DNA of 64,000 bases. Source: Levilactobacillus brevis (lineage in GTDB: Bacteria; Bacillota; Bacilli; Lactobacillales; Lactobacillaceae). Within the stretch, counting starts at the first letter, position 1, and the number at the start of each line of letters is the position of its first letter. Made by a program: the position numbers and the translations under genes. Below, piece by piece: positions 17,873-62,699 of the stretch. The notes below the pieces were generated by a model. That model ran no database searches. It worked only from the letters and a program-made list of their open reading frames with translations, and had not been told where the DNA came from. Location: the NCBI GenBank assembly GCA_003666485.1, contig CP032931.1:1426001-1490000 (forward strand), read 5' to 3'.

Positions 17873-18061
17873 GGCCGCCTTGCCGTTCGCCAAATATGGG
17901 TTGGAACGCTGAGGGCGCCGGGCCGAGCCAAAAGGCGGTCTCGACCCTCAACTTGGAGCCGATAAACCGCGTCTCCAAGTTGTCAGTTTTCTAAGCGGCA
18001 AGACCCGCGCCACTAAGAAAACTCCCACAGCTGAACCCATATTTGGCGAACTATCGGCTAC
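17873..18061 (+). repeat. R1 structured repeat, copy a
   Basis: Starts GGCCGCC, ends CGGCTAC. The outer helix is an 18-bp perfect inverted repeat (GTTCGCCAAATATGGGTT at 17885-17902 with its complement at 18034-18051). Two inner arms follow: CAACTTGGAG / CTCCAAGTTG and TTTTCTAAG / CTAAGAAAA. Lies directly after the araA terminator; no coding potential. Confidence 0.85.
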
Positions 18062-18095
18062 GTTGGTGCTTAGTGGAAACCAGAGTGTGTGTGCT

Positions 18096-18273
18096 GGCCG
18101 CCTTACCGTTCGCCAAATTTGGACCGTGACGCTGTGGGAAGGACCGGTCGAAGCCAAAGGGCGGTCTTCAACCTCGCTTCGAGCCGAAAATCACGTCTCG
18201 AAGACGCCAGTTTCCAAGCAGTTCACTTGAAAACTCCCACGGCTGAGTCCAAATTTAGCTCACTCACGGCTAC
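18096..18273 (+). repeat. R1 structured repeat, copy b
   Basis: Same layout as copy a, 34 bp further on. The outer helix here is CAAATTTGGAC / GTCCAAATTT, different in sequence from copy a but still paired. Inner arm CTTCGAG / CTCGAAG. Followed about 100 bp later by an R2 fragment in inverse orientation. Confidence 0.82.
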
Positions 18274-18369
18274 GTGGCAGGACTATGCCACTACAGCGAT
18301 ATTCCTGTTAACTTTGTAGGTAATTTCTAACGTAACCGGAGATAGTCAGAGATGTAAATTACTATGACA

Positions 18370-18425
18370 ACAGTGTTAGCTGAGTATTTTTCTCGCAGCG
18401 TGGGACGTGTTTGGAGATTGACGGG
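18370..18425 (-). repeat. R2 repeat, decayed fragment
   Basis: GTGTTAGCTGAGT ... CGCAGCGTGGGACG ... GGAGA matches the middle of the R2 copy at 24246-24427 in the same strand orientation. Only this piece is left. Its distance and orientation relative to R1-b fit the R1-R2 pair arrangement. Confidence 0.55.
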
Positions 18426-18477
18426 TAAGTTTATTCAGATAACCCATATTAGGTAATGCTGCCATTCCGCACCCATG

Positions 18478-18657
18478 TAGCCGAGAGTGGCGCGAAATCT
18501 AGGCTCAGCCGGGGAATTTGTCAGCGGGCTTTGCTGATAAATTGGTGACTTTGAGACGGTGATTTTTCAGCTCAAAGCAAGCCACGAGACCGCCCTTCGG
18601 CTCGGGGTGTCCTCCCCCAGCGTTCCAGCCTAGATTTTGCGTTACGGTAAGGCGGCC
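18478..18657 (-). repeat. R1 structured repeat, copy c
   Basis: Begins GTAGCCG and ends GGCGGCC on the plus strand. Outer helix AAATCTAGGCT / AGCCTAGATTT, again different but complementary. Inner arm TTTGAG / CTCAAA. The remaining stretch up to 18784 holds no gene. Confidence 0.82.
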
Positions 18658-18784
18658 AGCACGGACCACCTAGCGTTCAACGACCAATTTTGTCGCGATA
18701 GATCGTCGTGTCACAATGAAACTAATTACTTTTGAACTTGCAACCGATAGTAAATAACTGTGCATAGGAAAGAGGAGGAAACTC

Positions 18785-19348
18785 ATGCCAAAAACTGAAA
18801 AAGAAAAAATGATTACCGGTGAGTTGTTTAACGTCTACGACCCCGAATTGGTTGCCGAACGTGGCGTTGCCCGTGACCAGGTGGAAGCGTTGAACGCGCT
18901 AGGGGAAAGTGACCCTGAGGAGAGTACACGGCGGGTGAAGGCCTTATTTGGGACCACTGGAGATGCTGTCGAGGTTCACGCGACCTTTCGCTGTGACTAT
19001 GGCTACAACATCTCCGTGGGCGAAGACTTCTTTGCCAACTATGACTGCACGATTCTGGACGTGGCGCCGGTGACCATCGGCAAGCACTGTCTACTTGGGC
19101 CGAAAGTGCAGATCTACTCGGTCAATCACCCAGCAGACCCGAAGCTGCGGCGCAACGGGGCCATGGGGATTGGCAAACCCGTTACCTTAGGCGATGACGT
19201 TTGGGTCGGTGGTGGCGCCATCATTTGCCCCGGCGTTTCACTCGGCAATAATGTAATTGTCGCCGGTGGGGCGGTCGTGACCAAGTCCTTTGGCGACAAC
19301 GTTGTCTTGGGTGGCAATCCGGCGCGGGTGATTAAGACTTTGGCATAA
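18785..19348 (+). CDS. Sugar O-acetyltransferase (maltose/galactoside acetyltransferase family)
   Basis: 187 residues. N-terminal Mac domain (KEKMITGELFNVYDPEL) followed by left-handed beta-helix hexapeptide repeats (YNISVGEDFFANYDCTILD, VWVGGGAIICPGVSLGNNVIVAGG). The family moves acetyl from acetyl-CoA to sugar hydroxyls. The catalytic-type His is in YSVNHPAD. Lies between the arabinose operon and the sugar symporter with its own RBS (AGAGGAGG). It may detoxify non-metabolised sugars, as proposed for LacA; that is inference. Confidence 0.9.
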   Translation: MPKTEKEKMITGELFNVYDPELVAERGVARDQVEALNALGESDPEESTRRVKALFGTTGDAVEVHATFRCDYGYNISVGEDFFANYDCTILDVAPVTIGKHCLLGPKVQIYSVNHPADPKLRRNGAMGIGKPVTLGDDVWVGGGAIICPGVSLGNNVIVAGGAVVTKSFGDNVVLGGNPARVIKTLA

Positions 19349-19360
19349 TGCTAAATGAAG

Positions 19361-19392
19361 GTGGCTGACCGTGATGGTGGGCCACTTTTTTT
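19361..19392 (+). terminator. Acetyltransferase terminator
   Basis: Stem GTGGCTGACC / GGTGGGCCAC with a central mismatch, followed by seven T. Confidence 0.9.
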
Positions 19393-19452
19393 GCACTTTC
19401 ATGAATGCGCTTACATTAAAATGAGATGGTCTAAGAAAGCAAACCAGAAAAG

Positions 19453-19467
19453 TAATACGAACGTAAC
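19453..19467 (-). promoter_or_regulatory. AraR operator candidate upstream of the sugar symporter
   Basis: On the minus strand GTTACGTTCGTATTA resembles the araB-proximal AraR site (common core GTNCGTATT). It lies just upstream of the promoter. Confidence 0.5.
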
Positions 19468-19476
19468 AAAAAGTGG

Positions 19477-19505
19477 TTGATTTATCCGGATAAATGGCAT
19501 AAAAT
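19477..19505 (+). promoter_or_regulatory. Sugar symporter promoter with palindromic operator in the spacer
   Basis: TTGATT (19477-19482), 17-bp spacer, TAAAAT (19500-19505). The 16-bp perfect palindrome ATTTATCCGGATAAAT (19480-19495) fills most of the spacer, an efficient position for repression. A cre-like half site TGAAAACGTTTTAC follows at 19522-19535 but fits the consensus only partly. Confidence 0.65.
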
Positions 19506-19661
19506 AAATCTATTGCGTTTGTGAAAACGTTTTACTTATTTTCATCAAATTGTTGTCACCACAAACGTTAAGCGGATACATGTGAATTTATTGGACCATT
19601 TCTGGAGACAGGAGTGATTCGTCGTGCGAGAGAACGATGAGAGACATTGGGAGGTCTAACA

Positions 19662-21065
19662 ATGACTAGCAAAAAGAAAATATCAAGCGGTTTCATTTAT
19701 TTTTTCGGTTCCTTTGGCGGCATTCTGTTCGGGTATGACATTGGGGTCATGACCGGAGCCCTGCCGTTTCTGGAACACGACTGGAGCTTGACGAATGCCG
19801 GACTGATCGGCTGGATTACGTCTGCCGTGATGTTTGGGGCCATCTTTGGTGGTGCGATTTCCGGGCAATTGTCCGATAAGCTCGGCCGGCGGAAAATGAT
19901 TTTGATCTCAGCCCTGATTTTTGCGGTGGGGTCCTTACTATCTAGCTTTGCGCCCAACCAGGGGTCCTATTACCTGATTGGCGTCCGAATCTTCTTAGGA
20001 CTGGCCGTTGGGGCGGCGTCCGCGTTGGTCCCAGCGTACATGTCAGAAATGTCGCCAGCACGGTTACGGGGGCGGCTGACAGGGATCAACCAAACTATGA
20101 TCGTTTCCGGGATGCTGATTTCGTACATTGTCGACTTTCTTTTGAAAGGGCTACCAGAATCCTTCGCCTGGCGCTTGATGTTAGGGTCAGCGGCGGTCCC
20201 CGCGATTATCCTCTTTGCCGGAGTATTGCGGTTACCCGAATCACCACGGTTCTTGGTGAAAAACGGCGACTTGGCAGGGGCCAAGGAAGTCCTGAGCTTC
20301 ATCCGACCGGCCAACGAGATCGACCATGAATTGGCTGAGATTCAGGCTGCGGCCGTTGATGAAACCGCTGCCGCGAAGAACACGTCGTGGGGCACGCTAT
20401 TTTCCAGCAAGTACCGGTACCTGGTGATTGCCGGGGTCGGGGTCGCCGCCTTCCAGCAATTCCAAGGCGCCAACGCAATTTTCTACTACATTCCACTGAT
20501 CGTTCAACAGGCGACGGGGAGTGCGGCCAGTTCCGCGTTGATGTGGCCGATTATCCAAGGCATCATCTTGGTCATCGGGTCACTGGTCTTCTTAGTGATC
20601 GCAGATAAATTTAACCGGCGGACACTACTGACACTGGGTGGCGTTGTTATGGGCGCTTCCTTCATCCTGCCAGCTATCTTGAACCTGATCATTCCCGACA
20701 ACAACCCCATGCTGATCGTGGTCTTCTTGTCCGTATACGTGGCGTTTTACGCGTTTACTTGGGCCCCATTGACCTGGGTATTGATTGGGGAGGTCTTCCC
20801 GTTGGCCGTTCGGGGGCGCGCATCCGGGTTGGCATCGTCCTTTAACTGGATTGGCTCCTTTGCGGTGGGCTTGCTATTCCCCATCATGACGCAGTCCATG
20901 TCCCAAGATGCCGTTTTCAGTATCTTTGGGCTGATTTGCCTGCTGGGGGTCGCCTTTGTCCGGTTGTTCGTTCCAGAAACGAAGGGGCGGACGCTGGAAG
21001 AGATCGAAGCTCAGGGGACACAGAGCAAGAAGGTCTACGCGACCTCAGAATCACATAATCATTAG
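19662..21065 (+). CDS. Sugar:H+ symporter, MFS sugar porter family (AraE-like)
   Basis: 467 residues, 12 membrane segments. Sugar-porter signatures are clear: FGYDIGVMTGALPFLE in TM1, GQLSDKLGRRKMI after TM2, PESPRFLVKNG in the central loop, GRASGLASSFNWIGSF in TM10, and PETKGRTLEEIE at the C-terminus. Start ATG 19662 follows GGGAGG. Context (AraR-like and shared palindromic operators) suggests L-arabinose or another pentose as substrate. Monocistronic with its own terminator. Confidence 0.92.
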   Translation: MTSKKKISSGFIYFFGSFGGILFGYDIGVMTGALPFLEHDWSLTNAGLIGWITSAVMFGAIFGGAISGQLSDKLGRRKMILISALIFAVGSLLSSFAPNQGSYYLIGVRIFLGLAVGAASALVPAYMSEMSPARLRGRLTGINQTMIVSGMLISYIVDFLLKGLPESFAWRLMLGSAAVPAIILFAGVLRLPESPRFLVKNGDLAGAKEVLSFIRPANEIDHELAEIQAAAVDETAAAKNTSWGTLFSSKYRYLVIAGVGVAAFQQFQGANAIFYYIPLIVQQATGSAASSALMWPIIQGIILVIGSLVFLVIADKFNRRTLLTLGGVVMGASFILPAILNLIIPDNNPMLIVVFLSVYVAFYAFTWAPLTWVLIGEVFPLAVRGRASGLASSFNWIGSFAVGLLFPIMTQSMSQDAVFSIFGLICLLGVAFVRLFVPETKGRTLEEIEAQGTQSKKVYATSESHNH

Positions 21066-21074
21066 TGAACGAAA

Positions 21075-21108
21075 AAACGGACTCGGCCAAGTTGCGGCGA
21101 GTCCGTTT
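21075..21108. terminator. Bidirectional terminator between the sugar symporter and the small membrane protein
   Basis: AAACGGACTCG / CGAGTCCGTTT stem with A-run before and T-run after, serving the two convergent genes. Confidence 0.88.
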
Positions 21109-21137
21109 GACTATCCAACATTAACGTGCACAAGTGT

Positions 21138-21350
21138 TTACCAGCAACCCATGGCGCTACTCCAGCTCCCCATGCTGAGAAAGCCCCCGAGAACGATCAG
21201 TCCCAAGGCCACTACCGTAAAGACCCCCAGTAATGCGACAGTATCCTTGTCATGGTTTGTTCGTGGAATTAACCTTGCAACTAAGAAAATAATAAAAGCA
21301 ATACCGGTTACTAAGATTAAGCTACCGGTCAGCCAACTACCTGGCATCAT
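21138..21350 (-). CDS. Small two-segment membrane protein, function unknown
   Basis: 70 residues starting at the double ATG preceded by GGGGGAG. Two hydrophobic helices (about residues 8-27 and 40-60) are joined by a short basic loop ARLIPRTNHDKD; the C-terminus is SSAMGCW. I do not recognise a family. The frame is also open further upstream, but only this start has a ribosome-binding site. It stands alone and shares a terminator with the sugar symporter. Confidence 0.7.
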   Translation of the reverse strand: MMPGSWLTGSLILVTGIAFIIFLVARLIPRTNHDKDTVALLGVFTVVALGLIVLGGFLSMGSWSSAMGCW

Positions 21351-21511
21351 GTGTATCTCCCCCTTTTGACTTACATTATACAGAGTTTTGGCGGGAAAGG
21401 GGGAAATAGCTCCCGTGAATTCGCCGGCTATGGTAAAATGAGACTTAATTGCAGGTGGTGGCCGGACTAGGACATCACCATCAGAAAAAGACTTTGTAAG
21501 GGGTGACAACA

Positions 21512-21829
21512 ATGATTGATCGAATTGAAGCAAGTGCGAACGCTTTGTGGCTGACCCCCAATGCAGATGGGTTGATGCGCTTAGGGTTTGCGGATGATGG
21601 CCGTGAATTAGTCGGACCCGTAACGCACATTACCTGGCTGGTGACCAGCGGTAAGGTGAAGTTGGGGACGCCATTTATGATCGTTCACGGTGAGCAAGAA
21701 GACCTGACGTTGCGGTCGCCTTTTGCGGGGCGCATCCAAGCGGTCAATACGGCATTAGCGGCGCATCCGGAACGGCTGAATAACCGCAATGACGACCTGG
21801 ATTGGATGATCGATCTTGTGGACGAATAG
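21512..21829 (+). CDS. GcvH-like lipoyl-domain protein lacking the lipoylation lysine
   Basis: 105 residues. Aligns along its length with glycine-cleavage H protein: LGFADDGRELVGPVTHI for the first half, then RSPFAGRIQAVNTALAAHPERLN matching the H-protein segment after the lipoyl site. At the position of the lipoyl lysine (ESVKA in H protein) it has HGEQE, i.e. Gln, so it should not carry lipoate. No glycine-cleavage genes are nearby. Start ATG 21512 follows AAGGGGTGA. It is 12 bp before the pseudouridine synthase gene, so they are probably co-transcribed. Confidence 0.75.
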   Translation: MIDRIEASANALWLTPNADGLMRLGFADDGRELVGPVTHITWLVTSGKVKLGTPFMIVHGEQEDLTLRSPFAGRIQAVNTALAAHPERLNNRNDDLDWMIDLVDE

Positions 21830-21841
21830 AGGAGACAGCGT

Positions 21842-22729
21842 ATGGAGTTAAGTTGGCAGGTGACACGGTCAGTCACCAGTTTGAAACGGTTCTTGAACCA
21901 ACAAGGCGTCAGTCACCGCGTCTTCAGCGATTTGAAGCGTGACGGCAGCATCAAGGTCAATGGCCAAATGGTCACGCCGGCCGTTGACCTGCAGGTGGGC
22001 GATACCGTTACGGTCGTCTTGCCGGCAGAAAGCGCCGACCCAGCCGTGGCAACCAGTCAGACGCCAATCACGGTCTTATTTGAGAATCGTGATTGGTTGG
22101 TCGTGGATAAGCCGGCGGGACTAAACGTGGTGCCCGGGCCCGCCAATCGGACGGATACCCTGGTCAACCGCATCAAGGGGCACTGGCTAGCGGAAAATGC
22201 CGAGAATCAAGTGCCGCATATTTTGACCCGGTTGGACCGGTTCACCAGTGGCGTGGTGTGGGTCGCACGGTATCGCCTGGCCAACAGTCTGGCGAGTCAG
22301 CTACAGGCGGCCCATCAGGTGGATAAACGTTATCTCGCGGTGGTCAGTGGTCAATTAACCGATGACCATGGCCTCATTGACGCCCCGCTAGCCAGCGACC
22401 CGGCCGGCTACAACCAGATGGTCTCGCCGGCGGGTAAACCCGCCAAGACGGAATACTGGGTCGTCCAGCGTTGGGCGAATGCCACGTTGGTGCGGGTCAA
22501 ATTGCATACGGGGCGGACCCACCAGATTCGGGCGCATTTTGCCTCACTGGATCACCCGCTGATTGGTGACGAACTGTACGGGGGACCGCAACTACACGGC
22601 ATGACCCGGCAGGCCTTACACGCCCAGTCACTGGCCTTCACCGATCCTTTTACGGGGGATGCCCGGCAGTTTAGCAGTGAGCCGCCCGCTGACTGGCAGC
22701 GGTTATTGAGAAGTTTATCTGAGGAGTGA
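21842..22729 (+). CDS. RluA-family pseudouridine synthase
   Basis: 295 residues. Residues 14-60 are an S4-like RNA-binding region (LKRFLNQQGVSHRVFSDLKRDGSIKVNG). The synthase domain contains the catalytic Asp in ILTRLDRFTSG and the RluA motif HTGRTHQIRAHFA. The enzyme isomerises uridine in 23S rRNA or tRNA; the target position cannot be told from sequence. Start ATG 21842 follows GAGGAGACAG. It overlaps nothing but is tightly linked to its neighbours on both sides. Confidence 0.9.
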   Translation: MELSWQVTRSVTSLKRFLNQQGVSHRVFSDLKRDGSIKVNGQMVTPAVDLQVGDTVTVVLPAESADPAVATSQTPITVLFENRDWLVVDKPAGLNVVPGPANRTDTLVNRIKGHWLAENAENQVPHILTRLDRFTSGVVWVARYRLANSLASQLQAAHQVDKRYLAVVSGQLTDDHGLIDAPLASDPAGYNQMVSPAGKPAKTEYWVVQRWANATLVRVKLHTGRTHQIRAHFASLDHPLIGDELYGGPQLHGMTRQALHAQSLAFTDPFTGDARQFSSEPPADWQRLLRSLSEE

Positions 22730-22733
22730 GCAC

Positions 22734-23650: not shown

Positions 23651-23668
23651 TTGGGGATGGTGGCGGCT

Positions 23669-23853
23669 GGCCGCCTTACCGCGGCGCGCCAGATGCGTCG
23701 GAACGCTGTGGGCGGACGCACCGAGCCTGAAGAGCGGTCTTGGTACTCGCTTTGAGCCGAAGCCCACGTCTCAAAGACGCCAGTTCCCTAACCGACTGCG
23801 TCGCTAAGGGAAATCCCACGGCTGAACGCATCTGGCACGCCGCTCTCGGCTAC
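23669..23853 (+). repeat. R1 structured repeat, copy d
   Basis: Outer helix GGCGCGCCAGATGCGT with a complement that has one mismatch, a sequence shared with no other copy here. Inner arms CTTTGAG / CTCAAAG and TTCCCTAA / CTAAGGGAA. Confidence 0.85.
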
Positions 23854-23964
23854 TGTAGTGGTCAACACAATTGACTTACCCTTTCTTTATCGGCAACTGA
23901 ATACGGGGGATGACATCGGCCATGATGGGGACGTCAACCTTGCCTAGGGCTACCGGGGAACCCC
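23854..23964 (-). other. Spacer between two R1 copies, possible gene remnant
   Basis: The minus strand reads about 24 codons ending in VDVPIMADVIPRIQLPIKKG and a stop at 23876-23878, which looks like a protein C-terminus. The upstream part runs into R1-e. It may be the tail of a lost gene; low confidence. Confidence 0.2.
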
Positions 23965-24151
23965 GTCCGCCTACCGTTCGCCAAATATGGGCCGGAACGC
24001 GGTGGGCGGACGGGCCGAGCCACAGGGCGGTCTCGACCCTCAGCTTGAAGCCGACAAAACGCGTCTTCAAGCTGCCGGTTTCCTAACCGGCATGAATTGC
24101 CGCTAAGGAAACTCCCACGACTGAGCCCATATTTGGTGAACTCTCGGCTAC
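23965..24151 (+). repeat. R1 structured repeat, copy e
   Basis: Outer helix GTTCGCCAAATATGGGC / GCCCATATTTGGTGAAC with one G-T pair. Inner arms CAGCTTGAAG / CTTCAAGCTG and GTTTCCTAA / CTAAGGAAAC. It is followed after 94 bp by R2-a in inverse orientation. Confidence 0.85.
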
Positions 24152-24245
24152 TGTGGTGGTCAATAATATCTATAGCTGGGGCTATCAACGCCAAAAAAAT
24201 AAGTGGTTACAGTCTAACGTTTGGTTATCTGAACATCCCAACTTG

Positions 24246-24427
24246 CCGGAGGAGGCCAGGGGTGCAGCCAGCTGTGTCGACGGTGTTGGCTGAGGTCCTT
24301 TCTCAGCCTACAGCGTGGGGCGACTTGGGAGACTGGTGGGTTATGCCAGGCTTTCAAGCGAACCGGAAGCCCGCGCCTGGGCTGGAGGTGTCCCCCATAG
24401 CAGGCGGAACCCCTGGCAGCCGCAGGC
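24246..24427 (-). repeat. R2 structured repeat, copy a
   Basis: On the plus strand it starts GCCGGAG and ends GGCAGCC. Outer helix GCCAGGGGT / ACCCCTGGC. Conserved GTGTCGAC and CCCCATAGCAGGCGG segments (read GTCGACAC and CCGCCTGCTATGGGG on the minus strand) define the family. Inner arm GGCTGAGG / CCTTTCTCAGCC. Confidence 0.82.
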
Positions 24428-24454
24428 ACTGGTTTCCGCCATTTGCAGTTGAGG

Positions 24455-24500
24455 GGCTCTCAGCGTTCCAACTCATCTCTAGCGAACGGTAAGGCGGCCA
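24455..24500 (-). repeat. R1 end fragment
   Basis: CAGCGTTCCAACTCATCTC continuing to GGTAAGGCGGCC is one end of an R1 copy, without its partner half. It is nearly identical to the fragment at 28405-28449. Confidence 0.75.
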
Positions 24501-28404: not shown

Positions 28405-28449
28405 CGTCCTCAGCGTCCCAACTCATCTCTAGCGAACGGTAAGGCGGCC
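28405..28449 (-). repeat. R1 end fragment
   Basis: CAGCGTCCCAACTCATCTC continuing to GGTAAGGCGGCC is one R1 end, lying just after the azlD stop codon. It differs from the fragment at 24455-24500 by about one base over the shared stretch. Confidence 0.75.
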
Positions 28450-28470
28450 AGCAGGGAATGAGTCACCAGG

Positions 28471-29999: not shown

Positions 30000-30027
30000 G
30001 ACCGCAAAATGGCATTGGCGAGGCAGG

Positions 30028-30190
30028 TCGCCTTACCGTTACGTGAAATTCTAGGCTGGAACGCTGGGGAAGGACGGTCGGCGCCAAAGAGCGGTTGCCA
30101 ACCTTGCTTTGAGCCGGGAAAACACCGTTCTGTGGCTCGGACCGGCGCCCACCGCGAACCGGCTCATATTTAGCGACCGGTAAGGCGGCC
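30028..30190. repeat. R1 chimera: two like ends facing each other
   Basis: Both termini are the GGCGGCC-side end of R1 (GTCGCCTTACCG at the left, CGGTAAGGCGGCC at the right). The left half has AAATTCTAGG, the right half CTCATATTT, so the outer strands no longer pair. It looks like recombination between two R1 copies. Confidence 0.65.
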
Positions 30191-30216
30191 AGCAACCACC
30201 AATATCGTCAGCAAGC

Positions 30217-32644: not shown

Positions 32645-32646
32645 AC

Positions 32647-33913: not shown

Positions 33914-33975
33914 CTATGGCCTGGAGGATACCCACATTGGCTAGCGATTTCGCCTGGTGGGGAATACGGGTAGCC

Positions 33976-34079
33976 TGAGACGTGACCTTCAGCTCAAAGG
34001 CGAGGTGTCGAGACCGCACTGTGGCTCGACCCGTCCGTCCACAGCGAACCGGCTCATATTTGGCGGACGGACGGCGGCC
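33976..34079 (-). repeat. R1 partial copy h
   Basis: Contains the inner arm and the GGCGGCC-side half of R1 (GAGACGTGACCTTCAGCTC ... GGCTCATATTTGGCGGACGG). The partner strand of the outer helix is missing; the sequence at 33940-33975 is unrelated. Confidence 0.7.
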
Positions 34080-34214
34080 AGCCCAAACCAAGTAGCAGGC
34101 TACAACAAATTTCATTTTTCAAAAAGTTTTACGGAAAAAGCGGATTGCGTATTTCCCCAGCCGGTGCCATGCCGTATAATGAAAAAAACACGTGTGAGAA
34201 GAGAGGGAACCGGG

Positions 34215-36320: not shown

Positions 36321-36423
36321 AAATTTACTGGTTGTCGATAAAAGATTGAAGGTAGAAGCACCGCGTTGTTTGGCAGACGACAGCGTTCTACCCGCTAGGC
36401 ATTGGTGAAACTGGGCTCCTACG

Positions 36424-36598
36424 TCAGCCAGGGCTCCGCTTGCTATGGGGAACACCTTCAGCCTGAGGAGCGGTCTTCCGGCTCGCTTGAAAGCCTGGCA
36501 AAGTTCACCAGTCTCTCAAGTCGTCCCGCCCAGTAACCTGGCAAGAAACGCCAGCTAACTGGGCCGACACAGCTAGCTCCACCCTAGCTGCCTCCGGC
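36424..36598 (+). repeat. R2 structured repeat, copy b
   Basis: Outer helix CAGCCAGGGCT / ACCCTAGCTG (imperfect), then TGCTATGGGG. Inner arms are CCCAGTAACCTGGC / GCCAGCTAACTGGG and CTTGAAAG / CTCTCAAG. Ends CTCCGGC. The R1-i copy follows after 96 bp. Confidence 0.82.
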
Positions 36599-36694
36599 AA
36601 GTTGACGTCTATCAGTAAAACTGCATTGGCTGGTGTTAGTTGACAAGTTAACTGTTACCGAGGGGTAAGCCGATGATTGTTGGCAAGTACTGCT

Positions 36695-36973
36695 GTAGCC
36701 GAGAGTTCGCCAAATATGGGTTCAGCCGTTGCAAAAGAGTGTGACAATAGGCGGTTAACTGGCGAGCATTAACGGTGCTAGGCGGATAATCCTGCTCCTG
36801 GATTATTTGCTTAGCAGTGTTAAGCGGAACCAGTTGCCTGTTGGCACACGTTTCGGCTATGAGGCCATTTTGAGACGCGGTCTTCGGCTCAAAGCGAGGC
36901 CGAGACCGCTCCTCAGGCTCGGTCCGGTCCGCCCACCGCGTTCCAGCCCATATTTGGCGGACGGTAGGCGGCC
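36695..36973 (-). repeat. R1 structured repeat, copy i, with R3 nested inside
   Basis: Outer helix CGCCAAATATGGG / CCCATATTTGGCG is intact. The inner arm that carries the GGGAGTTCCC motif in other copies is replaced by an R3 element (about 36733-36859), making the copy about 90 bp longer. Confidence 0.8.
36733..36859 (+). repeat. R3 structured repeat, copy a (nested)
   Basis: AAGAGTGTGACAATAGGCGG to CGTTTCGGC. Helices: AACTGG / CCAGTT; TGCTAGG / CTTAGCA; ATAATCC / GGATTAT. Each differs from copy b at 57062-57189 with pairing retained, while GAGCATTAA and TTAAGCGGA are conserved. Confidence 0.75.
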
Positions 36974-36985
36974 AGTCCTCACCAA

Positions 36986-38566: not shown

Positions 38567-38575
38567 ACGAAGTAT

Positions 38576-38823
38576 CGAATAGAAGAGGCGCGACCAACAA
38601 GAGTCGCTTTCCGGAGATGGGTCACATCGCTGAAGGAAAGTTAAAGGGGCGGTCGCCGAAATCAACACGTGAGGACATAGCGTGGTGGTTGGGTCCTGGT
38701 TCAACAGATCAGGGACTGTCGCAGCCAAATATGGGTTGCGGGGCGCTTTCAACGATATTGACTTGGAATAATGAAACTTCCAATCTCTTTCGCGGGCTTT
38801 TCTGGCGAAGGAGATTTTTTTAT
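38576..38823 (+). ncRNA. Lysine riboswitch (L box) with terminator
   Basis: Conserved L-box blocks in order: GAAGAGGCGCG, AAGAGT, GGAGA, CTGAAGGAAAG, AAAGGGGCGGTCGCCGAAAT and GGGACTGTCGCAGCC (aptamer 38576-38726). The expression platform ends in a terminator: AATCTCTTTCGC / GCGAAGGAGATT followed by TTTTTT (38780-38823). High lysine would terminate transcription before the permease gene. Confidence 0.93.
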
Positions 38824-41282: not shown

Positions 41283-41352
41283 GCACGCGTGTTGGGGCAC
41301 TATGGATTGATCTGGCTGCCTGCTGTTGCACTAGTGGTCGCCCATGCCTGCG

Positions 41353-41528
41353 GCTGCCAGGGATTCTGCCTACTATGGGGAACGCCTGCAGCCCAGAAGC
41401 GGGCTTCCGGCTCGCTTTGAAGCCTGGCTCAGAACCGCCAGTCTCCAAAGTCGTCCCACGCTGTAGGCTGAGAAAAGACCTCAGCCAACACCGTCGACAC
41501 AGCTGGCGCCATCCCTGACCTCCTCCGG
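41353..41528 (+). repeat. R2 structured repeat, copy c
   Basis: Outer helix GCCAGGGAT / ATCCCTGAC, family core CTATGGGGAAC, GTCGACACAGCTGGC and CTCCGGC. Inner arms CTTTGAAG / CTCCAAAG and AGGCTGAG / CTCAGCC. R1-j follows after 77 bp. Confidence 0.83.
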
Positions 41529-41605
41529 CAAGATAGTCCACCAATCGCCAGCTAGCAATGGACGGTTATGGTCCACGTTAGTCCGTGTTAGTGGCAATCA
41601 CCACC

Positions 41606-41792
41606 GTAGCCGAGAGTGAAGCGAAAGTTGTGCTCAGCCGTGGGAGTTCCCTTAGTGGCGGGTTGTGCCGGTTAGGGAACTGGCGTCTTTAAGACGTGAT
41701 TTACGGCTTAAAGCGAGGGGCGAGACCGCATTTTGGCTCGCCCCGTCCGCCCACAGCGTTCCGGCACAACTTTCGCGCAACGGCAGGCGGAT
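41606..41792 (-). repeat. R1 structured repeat, copy j
   Basis: Outer helix GCGAAAGTTGTGC / GCACAACTTTCGC, 13 bp perfect, unique to this copy. Inner arms GTTCCCTTA / TTAGGGAAC and TCTTTAAG / CTTAAAG. Confidence 0.87.
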
Positions 41793-41829
41793 GGGACCAT
41801 TGTCAGTTGTTAAAGAAAAAAGTTAGTAA

Positions 41830-43382: not shown

Positions 43383-43394
43383 GTTCCTCTCTCC

Positions 43395-43579
43395 GTCAGC
43401 GCCACAAGCACTCCGCCTGCTATGGGGAACGGTTCCAGCCAAAGAACGGGCTTCCACCTCGCGCCAAAGCCTCGCTAAGACCGCGAGTCTCTGAAGGCGT
43501 CCCACCCAGTAACCTGGCCTAAAACGCCAGCTAACTGGGTCGACACAGCTGGCTCCACACTTGTGGCGCTGACTCCGGC
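43395..43579 (+). repeat. R2 structured repeat, copy d
   Basis: Outer helix CAGCGCCACAAG / CTTGTGGCGCTG, 12 bp perfect and unique to this copy. Core TGCTATGGGGAAC, GTCGACACAGCTGGC and CTCCGGC conserved. Inner arm CCCAGTAACCTGGC / GCCAGCTAACTGGG. No R1 partner follows within the next 500 bp. Confidence 0.85.
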
Positions 43580-43739
43580 TGAACTGTTTTTGCACCACGT
43601 CACTTTGACTCTTGGTAGTCGGTGGCAGGGTTCGGCTCGGTTTCTGTGTAACAGGAAGCGACTGGGTCGACGCAAGTAAATAAACATCAAAAGTGGTCTC
43701 ACGCAGTTACTGGCAGCAGTGGCCGAGATAGCGACCAGG
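43580..43739. other. Unassigned stretch after R2-d
   Basis: About 160 bp with no open gene or recognisable repeat. It may be a decayed R1 partner, but I see no convincing R1 core. Confidence 0.3.
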
Positions 43740-44176: not shown

Positions 44177-44249
44177 GGAGGATTAGCTCAGTTGGGAGAG
44201 CGTCTGCCTTACAAGCAGAGGGTCACAGGTTCGAGCCCTGTATCCTCCA
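44177..44249 (+). tRNA. tRNA-Val (TAC)
   Basis: Full cloverleaf; acceptor GGAGGAT / ATCCTCC, anticodon loop CTTACAA, T-loop TTCGAGC. No encoded CCA. Confidence 0.95.
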
Positions 44250-44287
44250 TCGGGACCACGGTCCCTGGCGGTTAGTTCGCCAACGTT

Positions 44288-44369
44288 GCAGGTGTGGCGG
44301 AACTGGCAGACGCGCTAGATTTAGGTTCTAGTGTCTTATGACGTGGGGGTTCGAGTCCCTTCACCTGCA
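44288..44369 (+). tRNA. tRNA-Leu (TAG)
   Basis: Acceptor GCAGGTG / CACCTGC, anticodon stem CTAGA / TCTAG with loop TTTAGGT, long variable arm as in class II tRNAs. Confidence 0.95.
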
Positions 44370-44404
44370 TAACTAAATATTGCAAAATATTTTAAAAATA
44401 TTTT

Positions 44405-44477
44405 GCCGACTTAGCTCAGTTGGCAGAGCATCTCACTAGTAATGAGGAGGTCGGAGGTTCGAATCCTCTAGTCGGCA
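44405..44477 (+). tRNA. tRNA-Thr (AGT)
   Basis: Acceptor GCCGACT / AGTCGGC, anticodon loop CTAGTAA giving AGT, T-loop TTCGAAT. Confidence 0.92.
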
Positions 44478-44504
44478 TGGCACCTTTAATTTAATAGCCA
44501 ATTT

Positions 44505-44576
44505 GCGGAAGTAGTTCAGTGGTAGAACATCACCTTGCCATGGTGGGGGTCGCGGGTTCGAATCCCGTCTTCCGCT
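44505..44576 (+). tRNA. tRNA-Gly (GCC)
   Basis: Acceptor GCGGAAG / CTTCCGC, anticodon loop TTGCCAT, T-loop TTCGAAT. Confidence 0.95.
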
Positions 44577-44587
44577 TTTGCCCTTTT

Positions 44588-44673
44588 GCCGGGGTGGCGG
44601 AATTGGCAGACGCACAGGACTTAAAATCCTGCGGTCAGTGATGACCGTACCGGTTCGATCCCGGTCCTCGGCA
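44588..44673 (+). tRNA. tRNA-Leu (TAA)
   Basis: Acceptor GCCGGGG with CCTCGGC (one G-T pair), anticodon loop CTTAAAA, long variable arm. Confidence 0.95.
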
Positions 44674-44693
44674 TTTAACTTAATAATAATTAT

Positions 44694-44767
44694 GCACCCA
44701 TAGCGCAACTGGATAGAGTGTCTGACTACGAATCAGAAGGTTGTAGGTTCGACTCCTACTGGGTGCA
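44694..44767 (+). tRNA. tRNA-Arg (ACG)
   Basis: Acceptor GCACCCA with TGGGTGC, anticodon loop CTACGAA, T-loop TTCGACT. Confidence 0.95.
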
Positions 44768-44803
44768 TTTTTGTCGCTTATGTTTTAGCGCATAAGCACT
44801 TTT

Positions 44804-44877
44804 CGGGAAGTAGCTCAGCTTGGTAGAGCACCTGGTTTGGGACCAGGGGGTCGCAGGTTCGAATCCTGTCTTCCCGA
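44804..44877 (+). tRNA. tRNA-Pro (TGG), copy 1
   Basis: Acceptor CGGGAAG / CTTCCCG, anticodon stem CCTGG / CCAGG with loop TTTGGGA. First of a tandem 104-bp duplication. Confidence 0.95.
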
Positions 44878-44907
44878 TTAACTGACAACTAAGTCAGCGG
44901 GCTATTT

Positions 44908-44981
44908 CGGGAAGTAGCTCAGCTTGGTAGAGCACCTGGTTTGGGACCAGGGGGTCGCAGGTTCGAATCCTGTCTTCCCGA
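44908..44981 (+). tRNA. tRNA-Pro (TGG), copy 2
   Basis: Identical to copy 1 and preceded by the same 30-bp spacer that follows copy 1, showing a recent tandem duplication. Confidence 0.95.
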
Positions 44982-45011
44982 TTAACTGACAACTAAGTCA
45001 GCGGGCTATTT

Positions 45012-45085
45012 CGGGAAGTAGCTCAGCTTGGTAGACCCCCACGTTCGGGACGTGGGGGTCGCAAGTTCAAATCTTGTCTTCCCGA
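45012..45085 (+). tRNA. tRNA-Pro (CGG), divergent third copy, possibly impaired
   Basis: Ends and spacing as in copies 1-2, but the anticodon arm is CCACG-TTCGGGA-CGTGG, giving anticodon CGG. The D-stem pairing GCTC/GAGC is broken (GACC), and GACCCCCACGT / ACGTGGGGGTC forms an 11-bp hairpin that would absorb the 3' half of the D-stem. T-loop is TTCAAAT with compensated stem. It may be a functional Pro-CGG tRNA or a pseudogene. Confidence 0.7.
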
Positions 45086-48436: not shown

Positions 48437-48622
48437 GTAGCCGAGAGTGGAGCGACTAGGTACTCAGCCGTGGGAGTTCCCTTAGCGGTGGGCTTTACCG
48501 GTTAGGGAACTGGCAACTTGGAGACGTGGGCTTTCGGCTCCGAGTTGAGGGTCGAGACCGCTTTATGGCTCGGCCCGGCGCCCACCGCGTTCCAGTACCT
48601 AGTCGCGCAACGGCAGGCGGCC
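48437..48622 (-). repeat. R1 structured repeat, copy k
   Basis: Outer helix GCGACTAGGTACT / AGTACCTAGTCGC, 13 bp perfect and unique. Inner arms GTTCCCTTA / TTAGGGAAC and CAACTTGGAG / CTCCGAGTTG. Confidence 0.87.
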
Positions 48623-48647
48623 AGAACCAACTAATTTAAATGTAACG

Positions 48648-57189: not shown

Positions 57190-57228
57190 AGCGGGAAATG
57201 GCTACCTGCCGTGTTCTTTGGTAGTAGC

Positions 57229-57268
57229 GGCAAAAAAAGAGGTCCCGGCTAGTGAGCCGAGACCTCTG
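57229..57268 (-). terminator. Terminator of the comC operon
   Basis: On the minus strand AGAGGTCTCGGC / GCCGGGACCTCT followed by seven T. Confidence 0.92.
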
Positions 57269-57280
57269 AATGACTGCTAT

Positions 57281-57466: not shown

Positions 57467-58064
57467 AATAAACAGCCTCCTTAAGATATAAGTTGTCGGT
57501 GGCCAGCAATATTGCCTCTTGCTTTGGGAACCCAATTTTCTTGTAGTTAGTATACCAGATATTAAACATTGCCTCTAGCTGTGACTTCTGAAAACGTATG
57601 CGGATTATTTGAAGGGTGGCATCATGACCGACTATTACGCTAGCTGCTAGAAAGGGATAATTAGCCAATGTCATGATATCGGTGATAGAAGGACGCGTAC
57701 TATTAGGATGGTTATGAATTAAAATAACGGGATTAGGTTGTTTGCGTAAGGTTGTGAAATCTTCCCGGTTAAAAAACGTACGGAGGGGAGTCGTACTGGA
57801 TGAGTTTTGGGCGAGTAATTTACCTAGTCGTGCATCAATTGCGTAGAGATCTTCAAAGTTAGTGCCGTTGCGGTGTGACAGAATTGCCATTGCACATTGG
57901 TAAATCGATTCGGAGACTGGTGGAGAGAACTTCAGTTGCAAAAATAAATCATGATAATTTTTAGAATTGATCAATTGGCGATCTACGGAGAATGTGTTGT
58001 GAACAGTTGTTGCGCGAACCTTTGTTGTTTCTGCTGCTTTGAATGGTAAGATATTATCCTTCAT
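57447..58064 (-). CDS. JAMM/RadC-like (JAB domain) protein
   Basis: 205 residues. The C-terminal half has the JAMM metal motif ILIHNHPNSTRPSITDI (His117, His119, Ser126, Asp129) as in RadC-type JAB domains. The N-terminal 100 residues are helical and lack the RadC helix-hairpin-helix. Start ATG overlaps the comC stop by 4 bp (ATGA). A role in competence or DNA processing is suggested only by position; peptidase or isopeptidase activity is possible. Confidence 0.75.
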   Translation of the reverse strand: MKDNILPFKAAETTKVRATTVHNTFSVDRQLINSKNYHDLFLQLKFSPPVSESIYQCAMAILSHRNGTNFEDLYAIDARLGKLLAQNSSSTTPLRTFFNREDFTTLRKQPNPVILIHNHPNSTRPSITDIMTLANYPFLAASVIVGHDATLQIIRIRFQKSQLEAMFNIWYTNYKKIGFPKQEAILLATDNLYLKEAVYFEEHHP

Positions 58065-58705
58065 CGAATCAGCCACCACCCCACCGCACTGCCCACTAAG
58101 TAGGGTAAAAAGGCCATCCGCCCGCGGTCGCGCGCCCGCCACAATGCCAGGGCACTGGCGATCAGGAGCCAGTGTGCCGTAGCGGTGACGCCCCAATAAA
58201 TAATGTAAGCAAGAATCAATTCGAGGTCGCCGTCGCCAATGAGTGGGGTGGGCCAACGCTGCCAGAGAAATTGAATGCCCAGCAGGAGGAGGGTAGTGAG
58301 TATAACCGCCGACCAGGAAAGCTGCCAGACCGTTAGTGGCCAGGCTAACCAGACAATCCAGCCGGGAAAGGTTTGGGTGCGCGCGTCACATAGCGCGGCG
58401 AATCCCCATAGCCCTAACCAAAGTAACGGCCGCACGGTGGCTGGCGTGAGCGTCGTCAATAAGAGACCGACCCCGACTTCAAGCACCAGTGTTGTGGGTG
58501 GGATCCGTTGCTGGCAGTAGTGGCAGCGTCCCCGTAACAATAGGTAACTGAGCACCGGCACCAGTTGCCAGTAGGCCAGGGGCGTTTGACAGGTGTCGCA
58601 GTGGGATGCCGGATAAAAGGGTGAGGCGCCGGTCGCATAACGGTCGGCCATGGCGGTCAGCCACGACCCCAGGCAAGCCCCATAAATAAACAGAATAATT
58701 GTCAT
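58061..58705 (-). CDS. comC: Prepilin peptidase (type IV leader peptidase, ComC)
   Basis: 214 residues, seven to eight helices. N-terminal peptidase domain with the zinc cysteines C36-x2-C39 ... C61-x2-C64, the first catalytic Asp at 107 (LCDARTQTFP) and the second in GDGD (Asp160). It cleaves and methylates ComG-type pseudopilins for DNA uptake. ATG 58705 follows GAGGTGA; an upstream in-frame ATG lacks a site. Shorter than the about 250-residue average but complete. Confidence 0.9.
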   Translation of the reverse strand: MTIILFIYGACLGSWLTAMADRYATGASPFYPASHCDTCQTPLAYWQLVPVLSYLLLRGRCHYCQQRIPPTTLVLEVGVGLLLTTLTPATVRPLLWLGLWGFAALCDARTQTFPGWIVWLAWPLTVWQLSWSAVILTTLLLLGIQFLWQRWPTPLIGDGDLELILAYIIYWGVTATAHWLLIASALALWRARDRGRMAFLPYLVGSAVGWWLIR

Positions 58706-58777
58706 GAAAGTTTCACCTCTACCCATCAACTCCGTAAAAAATCGTGAAATATTTCTGGAAAATTGCGAAGTGGCCGG

Positions 58778-58806
58778 TTGACAGGGACTTTTTGGCATGG
58801 TATTCT
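58778..58806 (+). promoter_or_regulatory. rpsL-rpsG promoter
   Basis: TTGACA (58778-58783), 17-bp spacer, TATTCT (58801-58806). A 170-nt leader follows, with a possible weak hairpin GAC-rich / GGTCGTC followed by TTTTTT at about 58900, a potential attenuator. Confidence 0.8.
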
Positions 58807-58987
58807 ATTCAAGGTGCTTTTCGCAGACAGGTCTCGGGTATTCACTACCAGACATGCTGACTGACGGCGGGGAGGACACTTCAATTAAATCTCAATCTGG
58901 GTCGTCTTTTTTCTTTACAGGAAAATGAACCACCTGGATGTGTGGACTTATAACTCTAGAAAGTATACGGAAAGGAGGACTATTTAG

Positions 58988-59401
58988 ATGCCTACTATCA
59001 ACCAATTGGTGCGTAAAGGTCGTAAATCTAAAAGTTCTAAATCAGATGCCCCAGCTTTAAACTACGGGTATAACAGTTTCAAAAAAGCTCAAGTTAAGAA
59101 TCCAGCTCCACAAAAGCGTGGGGTTGCCACTCGTGTCGGTACCATGACACCAAAGAAGCCTAACTCTGCTTTACGTAAATATGCACGTGTGCGGTTGTCA
59201 AACTTAATTGAAGTGACTGCTTACATTCCTGGTATTGGCCACAACTTGCAAGAACATAGTGTTGTGCTCATCCGGGGCGGCCGGGTTAAGGATTTACCTG
59301 GGGTTCGTTACCACATCATCCGTGGTGCCCTCGATACTGCCGGTGTTACTGACCGTCGTCAAGGTCGTTCCAAGTACGGGACTAAGAAGCCTAAGGGCTA
59401 G
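58988..59401 (+). CDS. rpsL: 30S ribosomal protein S12
   Basis: 137 residues, [19 protein letters not shown] start, decoding-site loop [18 protein letters not shown] with Lys56-Lys57 wild type (streptomycin-sensitive form), then [32 protein letters not shown] before the ATG. First gene of the str-type operon. Confidence 0.97.
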
Positions 59402-59479
59402 ACCGAGACTCAAAATTAAGGTCGGGTGCACGGTTGCCGTCAACCGACCTGTAACAGCATTTCAAGGAGGATATTAACA

Positions 59480-59950
59480 ATGCCTAGAAAAGGAAACGTA
59501 CAAAAGCGTGAAGTCCTTCCTGATCCAATTTACAATTCAAAGTTGGTCACTCGTCTGATCAACCACACGATGATGGATGGGAAACGTGGAACTTCAACTA
59601 AGATCATTTATGGTGCCTTCGACATCATTAAGAACGAAACTGGTAACGATCCAGTGGAAGTCTTCGAAGAAGCAATGAAGAATGTTATGCCAGTCTTGGA
59701 AGTTAAGGCTCGGCGTGTTGGTGGGTCAAACTACCAAGTTCCTATCGAAGTTCGGCCAGATCGTCGGACCACTTTAGGCCTTCGTTGGATGGTTCAGTAC
59801 TCACGTTTACGTGGCGAACACACCATGGTTGAACGACTTGCTCGTGAAATCATGGACGCTGCTAACAACACCGGTGCTGCCGTTAAGAAGCGTGAAGATA
59901 CGCACCGGATGGCAGATGCCAACCGTGCCTTCGCTCACTACCGCTGGTAA
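59480..59950 (+). CDS. rpsG: 30S ribosomal protein S7
   Basis: 156 residues, [20 protein letters not shown] start (ATG 59480 after AAGGAGG), conserved [20 protein letters not shown] and C-terminal [21 protein letters not shown]. The frame extends 18 codons upstream but without a site. Cotranscribed with rpsL. Confidence 0.97.
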
Positions 59951-60054
59951 GAGCAGCTATCGCACTGCCATGCCTACAGTGTGATAAAATGTTAGAGCAG
60001 AGTGTTATTTAACATTTTTGACTCTAGCTTAGAGGAGCAATCCTTTAATCGAGA

Positions 60055-60095
60055 GTGGCTACTAAAATCAATTGCGATGTTAGTAGTCACTTTTT
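60055..60095 (+). terminator. Terminator between rpsG and fusA
   Basis: GTGGCTACTAA / TTAGTAGTCAC (one G-T pair) followed by TTTTT, 43 bp before the fusA start codon. It may end the rpsLG transcript or attenuate fusA; the 100-nt segment before it could hold an antiterminator. Confidence 0.8.
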
Positions 60096-60137
60096 GGCAC
60101 AATCTACGATCAAATTGAGAGGAGTTACACATTAATC

Positions 60138-62237
60138 ATGGCTAATACTCGTGAATTTCCGCTTGAGAAGACTCGTAACATCGGTATCATGGCCCACATC
60201 GATGCCGGGAAGACGACGACTACTGAGCGTATCCTGTATTATACTGGTAAAATCCATAAGATTGGTGAAACCCATGATGGGGCTTCACAAATGGACTGGA
60301 TGGAACAAGAACAAGAACGGGGAATTACGATCACTTCTGCCGCTACTACTGCGGAATGGAAGGGTCACCGGATTAACATCATCGATACCCCAGGACACGT
60401 TGACTTCACTGTTGAAGTTGAACGTTCCCTGCGTGTGTTGGATGGTGCCGTAGCCGTCTTAGACGGTCAAGCCGGTGTTGAACCTCAAACCGAAACTGTT
60501 TGGCGTCAAGCCTCAGATTTCGATGTTCCTCGTATCGTGTTCGTTAACAAGATGGATAAGCTGGGTGCCGATTTCGACTTCTCAGTTAACTCCATCCACG
60601 AACGTTTACAAGCCAACGCTTTAGCCTTACAAATGGCTATCGGTGCCGAAGACAACTTCCAAGGTGTCGTTGACTTGATCGAAATGAAGGCCTACGTTTA
60701 CGATAAAGACGAATTAGGTTCTTCATGGGACACGGTTGATATTCCTGCAGATATGAAGGAAGAAGCCGAAAAGCGGCACGAAGCTATGATCGAAAGCGTT
60801 GCTGACGTTGACGATGAAATCATGGAAAAGTACCTCGAAGGTGAAGAAATCACCAAGGACGAATTAAAGGCCGCTATCCGTCGGGCAACCTTGAAGCTGG
60901 AATTATTCCCAGTCTTCGCTGGTTCTGCCTTCAAGGATAAGGGTGTTCAGATGTTGATGGACGCCGTTGTGGACTACTTACCATCCCCATTGGATGTTAA
61001 GCCTTACAACGCTACTGTTCCTGATACTGACGAAGCCGTTGAATTACGTGCCGATGACGATGCGCCATTTGCTGCCTTAGCATTTAAGGTTGCCACTGAC
61101 CCATTCGTTGGTCGTCTGACTTACATCCGGGTTTACTCCGGTACTCTGGAAGCTGGTTCTTACGTGCTGAACTCCACGAAGGACAAGCGTGAACGTGTTG
61201 GTCGTTTGCTGCAAATGCACTCTAACCACCGTCAAGAAATTCCAGAAGTCTTCTCCGGTGATATCGCTGGGGCCATTGGTTTGAAGAACACCACTACTGG
61301 TGACTCTTTGACTGACCCAGATCACCCATTACATTTGGAATCTATGGACTTCCCAGATCCAGTTATCCAGGTTGCCGTAGAACCAAAGACGAAGGCTGAC
61401 CAAGATAAGATGAACACCGCCCTACAAAAGCTTTCTGAAGAAGACCCAACTTTCAAGGCTGAAACTAACCCTGAAACTGGTGAAACGCTGATCGCTGGGA
61501 TGGGTGAACTTCACTTGGATATCATCATCGACCGGATGAAGCGTGAATTCAAGGTTGAAGCTAACATTGGTGCCCCTCAAGTTGCCTACCGTGAAGCCTT
61601 CACGAAGTCAACTAAGGTCCAAGGTAAGTTCGTTCGTCAATCTGGTGGTAAAGGTCAATATGGTGACGTTTGGATTGAATTCACCCCTAACGAACGTGGT
61701 AAGGGTTACGAATTCGAAGACGCTATCGTTGGTGGGGTTGTTCCTCGTGAATTTATCCCTTCAGTTGACCAAGGTCTGCAAGAAGCCATGGCAAACGGTG
61801 TCTTAGCCGGTTACCCATTGGTTGATGTTAAGGCCAAGTTATACGATGGTAGTTACCATGAAGTCGATTCTAGTGAAGCAGCCTTCAAGGTTGCCGCATC
61901 ATTGGCTTTACGGAACGCTGTTAAGTCTGCTGGCCCTGTTATTCTTGAACCAATCATGAAGGTTGATATCTTGGTTCCTGAAGAATACATGGGTGATATC
62001 ATGGGCCAAGTTACCGCTCGTCGTGGTAAGGTTGATGGTATGGAAGCACGTGGTAACGCACAAATGATCCACTCTTACGTTCCGTTATCCGAAATGTTCG
62101 GTTACGCTACGACGTTACGTTCAGCATCACAAGGTCGTGGGACATTTACCATGACGTTTGATCACTACGAACCAACGCCTAAGAGTGTTCAAGCTGACAT
62201 TATCAAGAAGAACGGCGGCACTCCGGTCGAAGACTAG
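60138..62237 (+). CDS. fusA: Elongation factor G
   Basis: 699 residues. P-loop [12 protein letters not shown] (residues 19-30), DTPGHVDF (G3) and [10 protein letters not shown] (G4) in the G domain. Domain IV has [14 protein letters not shown], and domain V is [23 protein letters not shown]. Catalyses ribosomal translocation. ATG after GAGAGGAG. Codons are those of a highly expressed gene. Confidence 0.98.
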
Positions 62238-62258
62238 TCTGTCTGTTGTTTAAAAGGA

Positions 62259-62288
62259 AACGTCTAACTTTTGGGTTAGGCGTTTTTT
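62259..62288 (+). terminator. fusA terminator
   Basis: AACGTCTAAC / GTTAGGCGTT stem (one G-T pair) and a six-T run. Confidence 0.92.
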
Positions 62289-62509
62289 GTTTTGTCTTGG
62301 GAAAGGCGGCGGTTGTCGGTGTCGGCAGAGGGTGTTGTGGGGAATGTGGTTGACCTGAAAAGGTGTGTTGCGCGTGTCTGTAGGGGGAGATGGCGTAGCA
62401 GTACGAAATCCGGTTTTGGATGTGAGAGACGTAATGCCATGTGCGCTTGAGTTTGATATGTCACTGGTAATCGACGAGATTAGGCTAGTGATTACTGGAT
62501 ACCACCACC
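62289..62509. other. Unassigned stretch after fusA
   Basis: About 220 bp of G-rich sequence without an open gene. No R2 partner for R1-l could be recognised here. Confidence 0.3.
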
Positions 62510-62699
62510 GTAGCCGGGAGGTCGCTGGAGATGAGTTCAGCTGTGGGAGTTCCCTTAGTGGCGTGGTTTTACGACGCTTAGGGAACTGGCACCTTGGAGA
62601 CGCGAATTTTCGGCTTCAAGGTGAGGCTCGAGACCGTTCTTTGGCTTGAGCCGGCGCCCTCAGCGTTCCGACTCATCTCCAGCGACCGGTAAGGCGGCC
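62510..62699 (-). repeat. R1 structured repeat, copy l
   Basis: Outer helix GTCGCTGGAGATGAGT / ACTCATCTCCAGCGAC, 16 bp perfect. Inner arms GTTCCCTTA / TTAGGGAAC and CACCTTGGAG / CTTCAAGGTG. It ends about 75 bp before the MATE start codon. Confidence 0.87.

Follow-up and report, generated by a model that had tools for sequence, protein, structure and literature searches.

Why does a repeat scattered between genes change the sequence of its outer helix from copy to copy, yet keep the two arms of this helix complementary? The question is raised by a stretch of 64,000 nt from Levilactobacillus brevis (CP032931.1, positions 1,426,001 to 1,490,000; referred to as the window), in which a preliminary description had located nine copies, plus fragments, of a repeat with complementary arms. 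All nine start points turned out to be real, eight of them as full copies and the one at 36695 with an interruption of about 75 nt. The fragments were found as well, and the outer arms of the copy at 17872-18061 are perfectly complementary (Table 1). Two aspects of the repeat as first read have to be revised. The likely RNA corresponds to the strand opposite to the one that was read, and four units in the window belong to a second, homologous type. The repeat first noticed is here called unit A, and its counterpart of the second type unit B. The evidence presented here makes it probable that both are parts of a non-autonomous element resembling miniature inverted-repeat transposable elements (MITEs), which carries two structured RNA units back to back, each kept as RNA, and of which unit A is one half.

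Copies of unit A and covariation of its fold

A profile search of the window and 40 further genome stretches (859,570 bases) yielded 130 matches to unit A, 102 of which were full length; the 28 partial matches were set aside. Extrapolation gives about 370 copies of unit A per genome, an estimate that leans high because some of the stretches were placed on known matches. When the whole genome was searched with a model, the best 150 of 1490 candidates were scored and all 150 matched, corresponding to at least 150 copies. Two plasmid stretches sampled from the same genome (40 kb) contained zero matches to unit A; the plasmid contigs of this genome are similar to plasmids of Levilactobacillus and Lactiplantibacillus. 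The mean pairwise identity of the 102 full copies is 77%. Units of both kinds are about 160-190 nt long, and unit A has three hairpins and an inner stem in addition to its outer helix (P1), the outer helix and four inner helices being paired across the 102 copies.

An alignment of 50 sequences, hand-picked from the 102 copies for spread and mostly with complete ends, was used to follow the pairing. The outer arms, which might have been unpaired as often as paired, pair in 97.7% of their cells (96.3% over all helices), compared with 33.6-43.3% when the partner columns are slid by one to three positions. Two-sided changes were found at 40 of 66 pairs, a level reached by 0 of 500 shuffles. Covariation was then evaluated against a tree-based null by a script of our own and not by R-scape; parsimony substitutions on a FastTree tree were re-dealt over the columns and column pairs were scored by a G statistic with average product correction. 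Tested within the structure set, 17 of the 70 proposed pairs of unit A (102 copies) covary above this null at E ≤ 0.05. Seven of these 17 are among the 19 pairs of P1; for unit B, 10 of 68 pairs covary above the null. Thus, the covariation that the preliminary description had asked for is present, also in the outer helix. Two-sided changes on the same branch numbered 167, compared with 17-36 for slid partners, and structure pairs make up 21 of the 60 column pairs with the highest scores, where 0.25 would be expected. In 13 independent comparisons of copies less than 6% apart, divergence amounted to 1.6% at helix sites and 7% at unpaired sites. In an alignment, fitted to the model, of 40 units taken from relatives (seven other genera contributed 37), two-sided changes occurred at 62 of 65 pairs (slid controls 33-39).

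Twin units and the ends of the element

For 40 of the 102 copies of unit A, a match to unit B lies 38-391 nt past the linker end, in the orientation in which the repeat was first read. Homology of the two units as judged from the own-genome model alone (R1, built from 50 of the 102 copies) was discarded; the antisense of unit A scored equally well. A second model (R2) was built from 40 matches in relatives, 37 from seven other genera and the remaining 3 from two distantly related members of this genus. In the window it recovers the eight full copies of unit A (E 8e-25 to 1e-36) and the four copies of unit B (E 1.5e-16 to 1e-18), with opposite strands within each twin; an antisense artefact appeared in a single case (E 0.0018). 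As judged by this model, units A and B are shown to be homologous folds placed back to back. Adjacent units in the window and 11 stretches, partial and antisense matches left out, are divergent in 23 cases, tandem in 4 and convergent in 0, and 12 of 13 adjacent pairs in relatives are divergent. Therefore, each unit reads outward from the linker. The twins of genome G005 (L271-L290) have longer linkers of about 50-650 nt, whose sequence is mostly unique to each copy.

In this genus, the element is composed of the inverted repeat CTAAAGGTTGMAAG, a spacer, unit B, the linker, unit A, a second spacer and again the inverted repeat, with an A+T-rich target duplication of 8 bp outside. Elements with both units measure about 570-750 nt and their linkers mostly 40-120 nt; shorter copies of 384-490 nt have lost a part. 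Terminal inverted repeats, one hallmark of a MITE, are represented in the L. brevis genome by the ends CTAAAGGTTGCAAGT, and around each of the 20 occurrences of this sequence that were fetched, about 100 nt or more belong to the element. In relatives, the ends among the matches listed are mostly CTAAAGGTTGAAAG. Matches to the inverted-repeat pattern occur in 28 of 34 genomes of the genus, many far over a reversed-pattern control and several not. A duplication of fixed length, another hallmark, flanks 5 of 23 inverted-repeat pairs (8 bp, at most one mismatch; 0.5 in shuffles), most pairs being without it. Exact 8-bp duplications surround an element of 615 nt (TTAAACAA, L145) and one of 384 nt in genome G014 (TTATTAGC, L310).

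Insertion sites differ between related species. In genome G030, an element of 636 nt is flanked on both sides by TGAAATAA; in the window, TCAAATAA occurs once at this place, at a gene end, which makes it an unoccupied site. The aligned anchors of G030 and a second relative, G033, are 87-90% identical to the window; 11 of 11 listed sites in G030 and nearly all of 10 sites in G033 differ in whether unit A is present, how complete it is or which way it points. What is left of a deleted unit can be read at two sites of G030 and one of G033. At the G033 site matching the copy at 62510 (joined contig 124930-125330), we read a remnant with one helix arm inverted beside the other unit end, as a template switch in the hairpin would leave. 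The preliminary description had set a selected fold against the copying of a transposable repeat. This contrast does not hold. By its inverted repeats, 8-bp duplications and positional differences, the repeat is transposable, and by its covariation the fold is selected too.

No autonomous partner was identified among the inverted-repeat loci of G014 and G002 that were read, and a blastn comparison of one full-length element with plasmid and phage records returned no match. At one locus of G014 (L294, 345-2847), the inverted repeat stands beside a broken remnant of an IS21-type istB gene, followed by a frame of 376 codons with HTH_38 and rve domains, which we take to be of IS30 type. Both were considered as the autonomous partner and are treated as incidental neighbours.

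Units also appear to move between elements. In 20 comparisons of unit A copies less than 6% apart, both 80-nt flanks were in the background range in 10, one flank in 9 and neither in 1. Since 19 of the 20 pairs have at least one flank whose similarity does not exceed chance, the units are apparently also exchanged as cassettes. Ungapped identity outside the unit is about 0.55 over the first six bases and about 0.4 further out. Selection as the sole cause would need to hold the unpaired sites of the unit too. The exchange is most simply read as ectopic gene conversion that stays within the homologous unit and is bounded by its ends. An earlier suggestion, a mechanism that rewrites both strands together, survives in the sense that a process moving both arms together seems to act, whole units being exchanged between elements.

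The RNA strand and competing explanations

The strand acting as RNA was approached through wobble pairs, counted at helix pairs with a Watson-Crick share of 75% or more (60 pairs for the strand first read). On this strand, A-C combinations outnumber G-T combinations by 139 to 60, which makes the reverse strand the likely RNA. In independent closest pairs of unit A copies, the well-paired positions of the reverse strand gave 89 G-U versus 28 A-C. This excess arose from G-C pairs (62 versus 17) as well as from A-U pairs (27 versus 11); a one-way bias caused by deamination would touch G-C pairs only. Independent closest pairs of unit B, read on the strand opposite to that of unit A, gave 40 G-U versus 8 A-C. 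The reverse strand is the more stable one in 96 of 102 copies of unit A, and so is the sense strand of unit B in 34 of 35. Units that had no part in the choice of strand agree: for 37 of 40 from relatives and 45 of 46 from genome G005, stability is greater on the strand that the model assigns. As far as can be read from the sequences, the RNA strand is likely the opposite of the one first read. Of the RNA or cruciform fold envisaged at the outset, the RNA is favoured by covariation above the tree-based null together with the one-strand wobble asymmetry of both units.

We propose that each unit is kept as the RNA of its outward strand. The outer helix would be free in sequence and obliged to pair, and would for this reason drift by compensatory change. 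As the two halves face outward, transcription from either side would read exactly one unit in sense. The units may therefore act on read-through RNA and not from promoters of their own.

Several observations weigh against this account. The wobble result hinges on the filter of at least 75% Watson-Crick pairing; over all 70 column pairs, G-T exceeds A-C on the strand first read (354 to 206). Of these 354 G-T combinations, 288 stem from four column pairs with rare or incomplete pairing, which we take not to be genuine pairs of the RNA. A stricter covariation test over all pairs was passed by 4 pairs alone, all of which belong to the structure, and exchange between copies violates the single tree assumed by the null. 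The flanks of close copies have a mean identity of 0.48-0.60, above the background mean of 0.36-0.42, so that some close pairs share ancestry outside the unit. Inverted repeats are demonstrated in this genus alone; 12 twins of relatives gave no clear ones. A transposase was not found, and a known transposase gene would probably not fit into elements of this length. Promoter-like sites are present in the linker of 19 of the 102 copies and on the outer side of 20 (about 12 expected each). Because the outer side shows about the same count, those in the linker are not taken as a signal. Short open frames occur in some linkers of G005.

Alternatively, the repeat might be a cis-regulatory RNA of the host, such as a leader, a terminator or an mRNA stabilizer, spread by transposition and retained because it affects the genes next to it, which we regard as unlikely. 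Genomic context was tallied for 81 clean cases, 21 of the 102 copies having been dropped for overlap with an open frame or a position at a stretch end. Only 6 of the 81 lie in divergent gaps, compared with 41 of 230 gaps of at least 250 nt, and in Bacillus cereus, according to the parts of PMC3446304 consulted, bcr-type repeats frequently form part of transcribed untranslated regions; both would suit a regulatory role. The orientation of the sense strand towards the neighbours is mixed, however, with 30 copies co-directional with both, 24 antisense, 21 convergent and 6 divergent, and the differences at every listed site of G030 likewise argue against an effect on neighbouring genes.

The chance is small that the fold matters as DNA only, in that hairpins extrude at replication and one arm is then recopied from the other by template switching (quasipalindrome correction). 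Such a process would account for the excess of same-branch two-sided changes and for remnants that can be read as fold-back scars, namely the one in G033 at the 62510 site and the opposed fused fragments at 30027-30191. Yet template correction should produce G-T and A-C intermediates in equal numbers, whereas both units favour G-U on one strand. Two further points weigh against it: motifs in and beside the hairpins are conserved in relatives, and in the 13 closest comparisons differences at unpaired sites are about four times as frequent as those in the helices.

Ordinary MITE copying, with helix variants as subfamily markers inherited in blocks and structural selection unnecessary, was already disfavoured and is highly improbable. 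Subfamilies do exist, some copies match over 400-600 nt and few pairs pass the all-pairs test, but the excess of covarying pairs over the tree-based null, the share of structure pairs among the top scores, the low divergence of helix sites in the closest copies and the retention of the fold in other genera all contradict it. A system of the REPIN or BIME type (see below) moved by a REP-associated tyrosine transposase (RAYT), suggested by the GTAG with which unit A starts at the foot of a hairpin, by the inverted pairs and by the high copy number, is hardly credible and is unsupported by the distribution of the Y1 transposase domain PF01797 over 34 genomes of the genus, since 11 of them, G030 included, lack it and all 11 have the repeat, genomes G021 and G031 have it and yielded no unit, and inverted repeats with 8-bp duplications appear unfit for that mechanism.

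Relatives, known repeats and a possible function

Table 1. Repeat units and element ends in the window (positions count from its first base)
Feature	Position	Strand	Remarks
Unit A, full	17872-18061	-	Outer arms 17885-17902 / 18034-18051
Unit A, full	18095-18273	-	
Unit A, full	18477-18658	+	Divergent to 18095-18273
Terminal inverted repeat CTATCGGTTGCAAGT	18736-18750	-	2 mismatches to CTAAAGGTTGCAAGT
Unit A, full	23668-23853	-	
Unit A	23964-24151	-	Left half of divergent twin
Unit B	24242-24432	+	Right half of twin with 23964-24151; E 7e-18, model from relatives
Unit A, fragment	24457-24500	+	
Unit A, fragment	28405-28450	+	Full copy in relative G030 at this site
Unit A, fused pair of opposed fragments	30027-30191	.	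30027-30124 (-), 30112-30191 (+)
Unit A, truncated	33944-34080	+	
Unit B	36412-36601	-	Left half of divergent twin
Unit A, interrupted by about 75 nt	36695-36974	+	Right half of twin with 36412-36601
Unit B	41341-41532	-	Left half of divergent twin
Unit A	41606-41793	+	Right half of twin with 41341-41532
Unit B type	43383-43582	-	No adjacent unit A
Unit A	48437-48623	+	Between ClpC-type gene and tetR-family gene
Unit A	62510-62700	+	Downstream of EF-G gene

Comparison of the window with Rfam, which had been recommended, gave only a lysine riboswitch (38575-38756, +; 114 bits, far over the gathering score) and tRNAs at gathering score; a cluster of nine tRNA genes lies at 44177-45085 (+). No family matched the fold of the repeat at gathering score, and a further Rfam comparison returned only weak, chance-like matches at high E.

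Model R1 detected the repeat in 33 of 35 genomes of the genus and in 0 of 23 genomes of other families. With R2, it was found in 59 of 201 Lactobacillaceae genomes, representing 12 of 40 genera, and in 0 of the other 298 genomes of the class sample. The last two counts are lower bounds, because only 13 and 8 candidates per genome, respectively, were scored and the filters were strict. Genomes G021 and G031 gave no unit even with 150 candidates scored and are the only two of the 35 without one found. A pattern scan of named genomes returned at least 80 loci, most of them from unrelated phyla and taken as chance. Four of ten loci that were re-scored failed; the other six, all from Lacticaseibacillus kribbianus, matched.

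In the open-access literature searched, no description of the element was recognised by title and start of the abstract. Several known systems resemble it in part, as described in the consulted sections of the papers cited. The repeats bcr1-bcr18 of the Bacillus cereus group (PMC3446304) are also interspersed intergenic repeats of Firmicutes, with MITE-like members and members of conserved RNA structure, and about half of the copies are transcribed; compared by description and not by sequence, our element differs in its homologous units back to back, its presence in several genera and its 8-bp duplications. Bacterial MITEs such as QMITE2 of Coxiella (PMC10969869) are likewise non-autonomous, with inverted repeats, MITE duplications of 7-9 bp and stably folded transcripts. 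There, one fold comprises the whole element, whereas here two separate RNA units have a fold that covaries across genera. Repetitive extragenic palindromes (REPs), bacterial interspersed mosaic elements (BIMEs) and REP doublets forming hairpins (REPINs) (PMC3733652; see also PMC3116915) are likewise palindromic units in high copy number that form inverted pairs, carry GTAG at one end and show G-T pairing in the stem, but they differ from the present units of 160-190 nt with several helices, no link to a Y1 transposase, inverted repeats and 8-bp duplications. Lactobacilli are not mentioned in the parts of PMC3733652 consulted. GOLLD and ROOL (PMC12286853) are large structured bacterial RNAs, GOLLD being known from Lactobacillales, but only the lysine riboswitch and the tRNAs of the window reach an Rfam gathering score. 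PMC2267715, which describes repeat clusters, includes Lactobacillus johnsonii among its genomes.

The features most conserved in relatives are the hairpins GAAGACG...CGGCUU and AAGACCG...GGCUU and the stem CAGC.GUG / CACAGC. This sequence conservation suggests a repeated, putative protein-binding motif. Tentatively, the units might be a scaffold for protein binding via the twice-repeated hairpin motif GAGAC...GGCUC, and might serve propagation or tolerance of the element and not regulation of host genes. A bolder and rather doubtful extension would be a class of transposable elements with paired homologous structured RNAs as cargo, possibly as a mobilisation signal. A trans-acting protein would recognise the units, cassettes would be copied between elements, and the outer helix would be the part that the protein ignores.

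If the proposed account is true, industrially important bacteria harbour a new structured RNA fold in very many copies, present in about a dozen genera yet borne by a fast-moving carrier. The reason why a mobile repeat keeps an RNA fold would become testable, single genomes would provide a natural series of compensatory variants of one RNA, and the contrast in gene content with G021 and G031 might reveal a trans-acting partner. The element may also have a bearing on the strong intergenic divergence among related lactobacilli.

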